A stretch of 21,233 bases of DNA. It comes from a virus. The stretch is from positions 1 through 21,233 of IMG/VR virus record IMGVR_UViG_3300027747_001184. The stretch is one strand, 5' to 3'. Shown one piece after another: positions 4,912-15,978 of the stretch; position 1 is the first letter of the stretch, and the number at the start of each line of letters is the position of its first letter. The notes under the pieces were generated by a model, which saw only the letters and a list, made by a program, of their open reading frames with translations, was not told the DNA's origin and searched no databases. The position numbers were made by a program, and so were the translations under genes.

Positions 4912-5334
4912 TTATGCTCTGGTTATGCCACGGGGATCTTGGACTATTCCTTCTACAGAATCGTCATTAATGATCCTAAATTCTCGTCCGTGGATCTTTA
5001 ATCGTGTGCCAGAGTTTGGTCTGGCTAGAATAAAGTCACCTTCTTTACACCATGGGCCAGTTGGGAACCTTGTGCTGTCTTTATAACAGTCAGGACCCAT
5101 CTTTACCACAAAGAATACGGTAGAAAGTAGCTCTTCCGTGTGCATAACGGAATCAGCTTTGATGATTCCGCTTTCATATTCCTTCTCTTGCTCTGGAATA
5201 GCTACCAAAATACGGTATCCAGAAGGCTCAGGAAGGACTTTTGCCTTTTCTTCGTTACTTGCACTAATGTTTACTGCGCCTACAACTTGTGGCTGATTGG
5301 GATTTGAGCCAATCAGTATCGTTGTATCACTCAT
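4912..5334 (-). CDS. GroES-like co-chaperonin
   Basis: 140 aa. ATG 5334 has GGAG eight bases upstream and overlaps the preceding stop by 8 bases. After about 35 variable residues comes the co-chaperonin fold: LPEPSGYRILVAIPE (first strand), ESGIIKADSVMHTEELLSTV (the position of the GroES mobile loop), FFVVKMGPD, CKEGDFILARPNSGTRLKI, then HGREFRIINDDSVEGIV at the C-terminus, which parallels the GroES ending that reads EEVLIM then ESDILAIV. GroES caps the host GroEL chamber. Phage versions such as T4 gp31 replace it so that GroEL can fold the phage capsid protein. The place in the head gene cluster fits that job. The hydrophobic tripeptide that contacts GroEL is not obvious; GII at the loop start is the nearest candidate. 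Confidence 0.85.
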   Translation of the reverse strand: MSDTTILIGSNPNQPQVVGAVNISASNEEKAKVLPEPSGYRILVAIPEQEKEYESGIIKADSVMHTEELLSTVFFVVKMGPDCYKDSTRFPTGPWCKEGDFILARPNSGTRLKIHGREFRIINDDSVEGIVQDPRGITRA

Positions 5335-9465: not shown

Positions 9466-9683
9466 AGATTCCTTAAACTAATATACGCTGGTCTTATGGA
9501 TCTGGCTTTCCCCACCACCCCTTTGCATACCCCAATTTCAATTAGGGCGCGCATTTTCCTCGAAACATTTCCGCGACCCTTCTCGCCAGTAATTCTCATA
9601 ATGTCATCAATCGTTGGCCCATAGCCAAAGTTCTTCCAATATTCGTCAATAATGAGAAACGTTTCCTTTTGCGCGGGACTCAT
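9462..9683 (-). CDS. LexA N-terminal-like winged-helix DNA-binding protein
   Basis: 73 aa, start ATG 9683 overlapping the previous stop by 4 bases; its own stop overlaps the TerL start by 4 bases. The sequence aligns by eye with the DNA-binding domain of LexA: SPAQKETFLIIDEYWKNFGY (helix 1), GPTIDDIMRITG (helix 2), GRGNVSRKMRALIEIGVCKG (recognition helix, then wing). The LexA autoprotease domain is absent, so it is a stand-alone winged helix. It may be a transcription regulator. Its coupling to TerL would also suit a DNA-recognition partner of the packaging motor, but another gene upstream already looks like a small terminase. Function is not established. Confidence 0.8.
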   Translation of the reverse strand: MSPAQKETFLIIDEYWKNFGYGPTIDDIMRITGEKGRGNVSRKMRALIEIGVCKGVVGKARSIRPAYISLRNL

Positions 9684-9916
9684 TTTTCCATCTTTTCCAA
9701 AAAGAACGGGGTATGTTCTCCCACATAAGCGCCAGCAATATTAAAGTCAAAATACTCCCAGGCCTCTTCCTCGGACATATCTTTCATTAAGATCTCTATG
9801 ATTTTGTCTTGGTCATAACAAACAGCCATAGTTCCCATACTATGTACTACGCCAAGGATAGCTTCATCAAAGCCATCAGCCGTCAATAACTCTGGATATT
9901 CTTCTGAAATTTTCAT
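9680..9916 (-). CDS. Conserved small phage protein, acidic
   Basis: 78 aa, ATG 9916. It contains GFDEAILGV, VCYDQDKIIEILMKDMSEEE and AWEYFDFNIAGAYVGEHTP. This combination (an AILGV strand, a CYD-IEILM helix, then EYF-FN-GAYVGE) is, from memory, seen in many phage small proteins of unknown function. It is soluble and acidic, with no cysteine cluster. It begins one base before the stop of the 63-aa gene is cleared and ends in an ATGA overlap with the winged-helix gene, so it belongs to the same leftward transcript as the terminase. Confidence 0.8.
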   Translation of the reverse strand: MKISEEYPELLTADGFDEAILGVVHSMGTMAVCYDQDKIIEILMKDMSEEEAWEYFDFNIAGAYVGEHTPFFLEKMEK

Positions 9917-9917
9917 A

Positions 9918-10109
9918 TTAGTGCAACATCCCTGTTCTTTTTAAATGGTCTATATGGTCTTGCGTCTTTTGGATTTCTTCATAAAACTCATACTCTGCCA
10001 GCTCATGAGCAAACTCTAGCGCATTAAACTCCTCAAAGTTTAATTTCCCAGAATCCATCATTGACCTTAGAGTAGCCATATAACGTCTAATCACTTCGAT
10101 AGTCTCCAA
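9918..10109 (-). CDS. Small hypothetical helical protein
   Basis: 63 aa if read from the TTG at 10109, which has a G-rich stretch (AGGGGGG) about seven bases upstream. Other possible starts are a GTG at 10094, preceded by GGAG, and an ATG at 10079 (MATLRSMM). The protein is helical and acidic: RYMATLRSMMDSGKLNFEEF, then EFAHELAEYEFYEEIQKTQD. No motif is recognised. The start is uncertain. It lies 11 bases after the small terminase fragment and one base before the next gene. Confidence 0.55.
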   Translation of the reverse strand: METIEVIRRYMATLRSMMDSGKLNFEEFNALEFAHELAEYEFYEEIQKTQDHIDHLKRTGMLH

Positions 10110-10120
10110 AATATACCCCC

Positions 10121-10780
10121 CTACCCTTTTTCTTTTGAATTAGTGACGGGGGGTGTTTCCTGTATATCTTCCCCGTCTGCCTGTCCTGAATTTAATACCC
10201 CCTCCCCCTCTGAATCATTATCTAAAGCTTCAGGGTTTATACCTATGGACGCGCAAGTATCTGATTCTAAAGGAGTTGTCACTATAACACCTGTTATAGT
10301 GAGATCTTGGAGTAAGTCATTGGAGTCGGATTGTTTGAGTGGAATACTATGCAAAGTTTCTGACTCGGAATTAGTCGATTTTTGGGGGTCGGGGTGTAGT
10401 GGGGTCGCGGGTTCTAGAATTTCATCATGGGTGGTGGTTTCGTCTTGCTCTATGGGCTCTGATAGCTCTATAAGCAAGCTCTCGGCCTTGCGCTTGGCTA
10501 GATCATTGATAGAGCGCGAGCTAGAAAAGGCTAGTCTTAGGCTCTCTAATAGTCGGCCCTTAATATCTTGGCTAGAATGTAAATGTAGGTGCGTCTTAGT
10601 CTCAGCGAATAGACTAACCTCTGACATCTTGCCGATTAGCTCTAAGGCCTTTAGCTTGTTACTAGTCTTTTCCCCGTCATCAATAGCTATTGTTACTAGA
10701 TTTTGTATTGCCATTGTTCTTATTTGTGCGGGAATTAGATATTCCCTCGCCTCATTAGCCAGAGTGAACGCCTCGATCAT
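10121..10780 (-). pseudogene. terS: Terminase small subunit, C-terminal part (out of frame with N-terminal part)
   Basis: Open frame of 219 codons from an ATG at 10780. Residues 1-11 (MIEAFTLANEA) repeat the end of the upstream fragment, and the continuation LIPAQIRTMAIQNLVTIAID then KLKALELIGKMSEVSLF is the typical small-terminase middle region. The two fragments together would make one normal small terminase that recognises phage DNA and activates TerL. The break is a 35-bp tandem duplication at 10758-10827, which shifts the frame. ATG 10780 lies just after the TAG of the first part, so reinitiation could still yield two chains. The last 110 residues are unusual: acidic, Ser/Thr/Pro-rich, apparently disordered. 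A palindrome at 10279-10302 lies within this coding region. A sequencing or assembly artefact is possible. Confidence 0.7.
10279..10302. repeat. 24-bp perfect inverted repeat inside the small terminase gene
   Basis: TCACTATAAC and GTTATAGTGA are exact reverse complements separated by ACCT. The element lies in the disordered C-terminal coding part of terS, where protein constraint is probably weak. It could be a protein-binding site, for instance a packaging-initiation site, or an RNA hairpin. In P22 the pac site lies inside the small terminase gene, which makes the position suggestive but not conclusive. Confidence 0.6.
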
Positions 10781-10827
10781 TGATGCTATCTTGCCAGAGT
10801 AAAGGCCTCGATCATTGATGCTATCTT
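10758..10827. repeat. 35-bp imperfect tandem duplication that breaks terS
   Basis: Copy A (10758-10792) and copy B (10793-10827) are directly adjacent and match at 33 of 35 positions. On the coding strand both encode ASMIEAFTLA. The two differences are third-position changes: GCC/GCG for Ala and TTT/TTC for Phe. Because 35 is not a multiple of three, the second copy moves the frame by one and a TAG follows at 10786-10788. Confidence 0.9.
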
Positions 10828-11091
10828 GGGATTCTTTGCTAGTCGGCTTGCTTGCTCGGCCTGACTTTGTGGTGATGCGCTTGTATTGTAGGATTCTCGG
10901 AACGCTTGCGCTTGTGGTTTACCCTCTGCGACTTTCCGCGCGAAGTCTTTTTGTTTCTTGGTTAGTCTAACTTTGTCGGCATTATGCGCGCCTACTAGAA
11001 TATTCTCTATGGGCATATTTTTGAGGCCGTCGGTTATTTCTTTGCGGGTTAGTTTAATGGACTTAGTCATAGGTATTATGGACTTAGTCAT
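10786..11091 (-). pseudogene. terS: Terminase small subunit, N-terminal DNA-binding part (truncated)
   Basis: 101 codons ending NPKIASMIEAFTLAR and then TAG. LTKKQKDFARKVAEGKPQAQ at about 43-62 followed by AFRESYNTSASPQSQ and EQASRLAKNPKIASMI is the helix-turn-helix region of small terminase subunits, which binds the packaging site. The protein stops abruptly where the family normally continues, and the continuation is found in another frame at 10121-10780. Two possible starts, 11091 and 11070, come from a 21-bp in-frame duplication; neither has a clear Shine-Dalgarno site. A TATACT -10 lies at 11121-11126 on this strand. Gene content immediately upstream of TerL supports the call. If the duplication is real, the small terminase is either two chains or defective. 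Confidence 0.8.
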
Positions 11092-11098
11092 AGGTATT
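11057..11098. repeat. 21-bp perfect tandem duplication at the terS start
   Basis: 11057-11077 and 11078-11098 are identical and adjacent. On the coding strand the unit holds a start codon and MTKSI, so the protein begins MTKSIIP then MTKSIKL. The length is a multiple of three, so the frame is kept. The octamer TAGGTATT inside the unit occurs a third time at 11102-11109. Confidence 0.9.
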
Positions 11099-15450: not shown

Positions 15451-15629
15451 AAATGAAAGGATATGCAGTAAGGCTTAACTTTTATGGCACAACGACTGTA
15501 TTTGTGACCGCACCTGACTATGATGAGGCCGAAGAGGTGGCCTTAGAAAATGCTGAAAATGGTGATTACAATCTACTTGAAATAGAGTTTGAGGTAGAAG
15601 GCTCAGAGTTAGACGATGATGAATCTTAA
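15447..15629 (+). CDS. Very acidic small protein (60 aa), DpnD/PcfM-like pattern
   Basis: ATG 15447 in a 4-base overlap with the previous stop, with AAGGTG upstream. GYAVRLNFYGTTTVFVTAPD, YDEAEEVALENAENGDYN, then LLEIEFEVEGSELDDDES. 17 acidic and 3 basic residues, net about -14. The strand-strand, EAEEVALENAE helix, strand arrangement resembles the 60-aa gene at 13922, suggesting a common origin. Function unknown. Confidence 0.75.
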   Translation: MKMKGYAVRLNFYGTTTVFVTAPDYDEAEEVALENAENGDYNLLEIEFEVEGSELDDDES

Positions 15630-15978
15630 AGAAGGGCGGGGAAAAGTCCCGATTAGAAATACCACTCAGCATGAGGCCACACCTTATCTATTAGTGGACT
15701 TTCCTACGCGAGAAGAGTTTGATGCACTCTATTCCAAGCATAAATCCCAAGAGTTAAAGGATAGATATTGGTCTATCCTTAACTTGAGGGCGCAAGGTAA
15801 AACTCTGGTGGACTCTGGTGATTCGTTTGGTCTAACGCGGGAGCGGGTTAGGCAAATTGAGGCCAGATTTCAAAGACTTATGGAAAAAAAATATACCACT
15901 CAGATCGAGGCTAATTTATCTATGTTATCCTCAAACCAGAACTTAGTAGAGCTTTTTTTAAAATCTGAGACATCTTAA
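15616..15978 (+). CDS. Sigma-factor region 4-like DNA-binding protein (120 aa)
   Basis: ATG 15616 (or 15619) lies inside the previous gene; the ribosome site is weak. The middle holds a clear sigma-70 region 4 helix-turn-helix: RYWSILNLRAQGKTLVDSGD at about 50-69 and SFGLTRERVRQIEARFQRLM at 70-89, with the RERVRQIEA recognition-helix signature of region 4.2. Regions 1-3 of a full sigma factor are absent. It could therefore be a stand-alone region-4 regulator, an anti-sigma-like competitor for the beta flap or -35 DNA, or a late-gene activator. It is the last gene of the early block, and its final 59 bases overlap the primase gene on the other strand. Confidence 0.85.
   Translation: MMNLKEGRGKVPIRNTTQHEATPYLLVDFPTREEFDALYSKHKSQELKDRYWSILNLRAQGKTLVDSGDSFGLTRERVRQIEARFQRLMEKKYTTQIEANLSMLSSNQNLVELFLKSETS

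Follow-up and report, generated by a model that had tools for sequence, protein, structure and literature searches.

The terminase small subunit gene (terS) of the virus record IMGVR_UViG_3300027747_001184 appears in two pieces. Does the split reflect an event in the phage or one in the assembly of its sequence? We analyzed all 21,233 bases of the record (hereafter the window), in which terS lies on the minus strand. Our preferred reading, to which we assign a probability of roughly 0.7, is that the split is a metagenome-assembly seam at which fragments of two strains were joined with their overlaps untrimmed, and that it is probably not biology.

A 35-bp tandem repeat divides terS into two reading frames

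Two exactly adjacent 35-bp copies, identical at 33 of 35 positions, occupy positions 10758–10827. They differ at 10766/10801 and 10769/10804, which in the terS frame correspond to two silent changes, Phe TTC/TTT and Ala GCG/GCC. The repeat shifts the frame and leaves two ORFs of 101 and 219 codons, the first of which (11091–10786) closes with a TAG at 10788–10786 while the second starts with an ATG at 10780–10778. A first-pass annotation of this DNA had described the same break, the two silent differences between copies and the neighboring stop and start codons, all of which we reproduced. The features are as follows.

10786..11091, minus strand: 5′ ORF of the split terS, 101 aa, predicted helical DNA-binding part, ending ...IEAFTLAR before the stop (phrog_51, E=7.4e-08)
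10121..10780, minus strand: 3′ ORF of the split terS, 219 aa, with the remainder of a predicted long helix, central helices and a low-confidence C-terminus (from the ORF list)
10758..10792, minus strand: 35-bp repeat, downstream copy in the terS sense, allele GCG TTC, equal to the single copy of relatives L003 and L004
10793..10827, minus strand: 35-bp repeat, upstream copy, allele GCC TTT, equal to the single copy of relative L002
7960..9465, minus strand: terL, large terminase subunit, intact, 501 aa (Terminase_6C, E=6.9e-14; phrog_38, E=2.3e-110)

Profile matches to TerS families identify the split gene as a phage terminase small subunit: the intact proteins of relatives match phrog_51 at 4.9e-08 to 1.9e-11 and Pfam Terminase_2 below its cut-off, and the profile built from them matches the frame of the 3′ ORF at 66–305. 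The same profile found no match among solved structures. As in the small subunits of that family (phrog_51, and weakly Terminase_2), a helical DNA-binding part at the N-terminus would be followed by a long central helix, and the gene lies upstream of terL; unlike them, and in the window only, it is divided between two frames. It is followed by intact TerL and portal genes. The intact TerS of one relative (L014:463–1362) also matches the porphobilinogen deaminase family of Pfam weakly (E=1.9e-05) over its central helices, which is very probably due to chance.

In the intact protein the break falls at residues 81–92, adjoining the most conserved stretch (AN.AREYL.P.Q.RT). Our TerS structure model has low confidence overall (mean pLDDT 53), and for this reason we used only its helical region, residues 38–118. 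There the break lies where a long predicted helix (81–118) begins, one that would join the DNA-binding helices (38–78) to the central ones.

terS is uninterrupted in relatives of the window

We collected 86 related loci from other viral contigs by searches with the 5′ ORF and with TerL; the nearest relatives are L002, L003/L088, L004/L089 and L008. When the intact-TerS profile was run against six-frame ORFs of all loci, a terS match was found in 65, of which 44 are complete in one frame and none is split. The break point is crossed in one frame in 55 loci, and in every one of these a single chain links the DNA-binding and central helices that are separated in the window. Whether related phages share the split, a check that the first-pass annotation had proposed, can thus be answered in the negative, and we reject a conserved split arrangement. 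In an alignment of the terS region, L002–L007, L009 and L012 carry the 35-bp unit once within an uninterrupted gene, and in records 023Pt_psg01 and HTVC027P terS is annotated as one gene. A DNA search of a phage collection with the terS region returned no match, and the TerL relatives among known phages, at most 57.5% identical, are too distant to inform on the repeat.

These counts bear on the possibility, also raised in the first-pass annotation, that the gene works as a two-chain small terminase whose second chain arises by reinitiation at ATG 10780 after TAG 10786. The stop lies only 5 bases from the next ATG, where a long 3′ ORF starts, but no clear Shine–Dalgarno sequence precedes that ATG, the split would cut the predicted 81–118 helix and part the DNA-binding helices from the central ones, and a second overlap-like repeat lies 229 bp away. 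With the same split in no relative, a functional two-chain form is very improbable. A version in which the junction is real, arising by near-homology-free, out-of-register recombination between the terS genes of co-infecting phages and yielding two cooperating chains by stop–reinitiation, is equally hard to credit.

The repeat copies are alleles of two strains

L002 reads C and T at the sites where the copies differ, as in the upstream copy, and L003 and L004 read G and C, as in the downstream copy. Each copy is therefore, letter for letter, the single copy of a different relative, so that the two represent alleles present in the population. The flanks, too, switch strain at this point. Compared with L002, the window has 1 mismatch in the 250 bases above the repeat (10828–11077), 26 in the 308 bases below it (10450–10757) and none in the 550 bases after those (9900–10449), a pattern with a Fisher p of about 9e-15 (calculated with 27 differences instead of 26). 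Across 10858–11062, 19 of the 20 variable sites place the window with L002 against L003 and L004. Below the repeat many sites place it with L004 against L002, and seven further changes, all at third codon positions, are common to neither. The 35-bp repeat thus sits exactly where the contig passes from one strain's terS to another's. Both the letter-for-letter matches and the flanking change of strain strongly support the earlier idea that the copies represent two alleles, drawn from related phages. The stretches compared are as follows.

10793..11077, minus strand: proposed bridging piece, about 285 bp, close to L002 (outside the repeat, 1 mismatch in 250 bp)
10450..10757, minus strand: block with a third allele of terS (differences from L002 at 26 of 308 bases, 24 being silent, and from L003 at 15 of 243)
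9900..10449, minus strand: stretch without a mismatch to L002 over 550 bp, the identity extending to about 7800

Because 24 of the 26 changes in the downstream block are silent, both halves derive from working genes. This downstream allele has no match elsewhere in viral contigs.

Replication slippage can produce tandem repeats of such size, and the two copies could in principle have arisen so, with two silent mutations following in one of them. We reject this origin, which we regard as scarcely credible, since the variants at the two differing sites occur in relatives already, as linked alleles, and since the strain changes in the flanks of the repeat.

The third-allele block is flanked on both sides by near-L002 stretches, and its lower edge (about 10455) has no repeat; this edge may reflect natural recombination. 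The stretch between terS and terL (9679–9918) also varies among relatives, with L004 matching it in two pieces separated by extra sequence, as if the small genes there were exchanged as cassettes.

A second tandem repeat lies over the terS start codon

A further tandem repeat, absent from the first-pass annotation, consists of two identical 21-bp copies in frame, adding 7 codons.

11057..11098, minus strand: second tandem repeat, two identical 21-bp copies that span the terS start codon, unrepeated in any relative covering the site MTKSIIPMTKSIKL

It lies 229 bp from the 35-bp repeat in the same gene, both falling inside 341 bp, and the L002 contig begins exactly at the boundary between its two copies (11077). 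In relatives whose sequence reaches beyond the start of terS, the 21-bp unit, unchanged or diverged, occurs once, so that neither repeat is duplicated in any relative. In direct scans of the viral collection, the 35-bp core occurred in three contigs and the 21-bp unit in L002 only, always as a single copy; the 21-bp junction itself had no match, and no other viral contig had either repeat twice.

Such repeats are rare. A scan for adjacent repeats (16–199 bp, at least 92% identity) found two in the 21-kb window, both within terS, as against five in the 86 other loci (about 713 kb), which argues that the terS repeat is not due to chance and, given two repeats within 341 bp, suggests one common cause.

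Origin of the split

The phage population includes several strains with differing terS genes. We propose that a piece of about 285 bp from an L002-like strain (about 10793–11077) was set between sequence of the other allele downstream and the region upstream of terS, with overlaps left at both ends: 21 identical bases at one, and 35 bases with two strain-specific silent differences at the other. Untrimmed, these overlaps would appear as false duplications in tandem, one at each end, and the longer, of 35 bp, would shift the frame. The joining, we infer, happened in software and not in the phage. The printed sequences show 0 and about 1 bp of microhomology at the joins, unlike typical slippage, and we count this in favor of a seam. 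In addition, the L003 contig ends at 10515 and that of L008 at 10409; together with the end of L002 these cluster here, indicating that assemblies of this population break at this place.

Some observations count against a seam. The joins contain no Ns, and reads across them would normally be required by a de Bruijn assembler whose final k is large. The repeat-free block boundary near 10455 suggests that part of the mosaic may be real recombination, and the L002 end at the 21-bp boundary could equally reflect a real 21-bp repeat polymorphic in that population. On these grounds a true recombinant with a broken terS, while unlikely, keeps an appreciable share of the probability. In a co-infected cell, replication or repair would have switched between the terS genes of two phages 35 bp out of register, and the resulting genome would be a terS mutant kept by co-infection or as a minority form. 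Both parental alleles are present in relatives, the preponderance of silent differences in the foreign block implies that each half was functional until recently, and there is wider mosaicism around 10450 and against L008. On the other hand, terS is intact in every relative, microhomology is all but lacking at both joins, the 21-bp duplication 229 bp away would have to be a second, independent event, and the small terminase is described, in the accessible part of the source, as essential for packaging (PMC9611059). The first-pass annotation had left the choice between a recombination product expressing two chains and a chimeric assembly; the chimera is favored and the two-chain enzyme is unsupported.

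Resemblance to described assembly errors

A described class of assembly error comprises false duplications at contig boundaries, of heterotype and homotype form, which sometimes occur side by side (PMC8081667). As in those cases (PMC8081667; PMC9516828), the window has tandem copies at what would be contig boundaries, one pair differing by strain or haplotype and the other identical, and a gene whose split or duplication is probably spurious. The described examples come from diploid vertebrate assemblies, with homotype copies of about read length and a scaffolding gap between copies, whereas the repeats here measure 35 and 21 bp and are gapless in a phage metagenome contig. In keeping with the heterotype form, the 35-bp copies are the alleles of two strains (L002 versus L003/L004) and the strain switches in the flanks (1/250 versus 26/308 mismatches to L002). 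The 21-bp copies, which are identical, are candidates for the homotype form, the contig end between them being that of the related contig L002. Chimeric contigs built from more than one closely related virus genome have likewise been described in virome assemblies (PMC5610896), the accessible part of which does not name short tandem overlaps as a sign of the seam. Literature searches found no useful account of this exact short-read artefact and nothing of use under the sample numbers.

An artefactual seam would mean that this contig is no example of a split small terminase and should not be quoted as one, and that the strain mixture should be flagged in any population analysis. A tandem repeat whose copies match different relatives, combined with a strain switch, offers a simple read-free test for chimeric viral joins. 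Were the junction real, it would be a seldom-seen instance of recombination out of register within an essential phage gene. An assembly chimera that kept its overlaps is the likeliest cause.

Other genes of the window

A GroES-like co-chaperonin gene lies among the head genes at 4912–5334 (phrog_3188, E=7e-12), and the gene at 15616–15978, adjoining convergent Toprim and helicase genes, encodes a small protein that matches sigma-70 region 4 in Pfam (E=7e-06).
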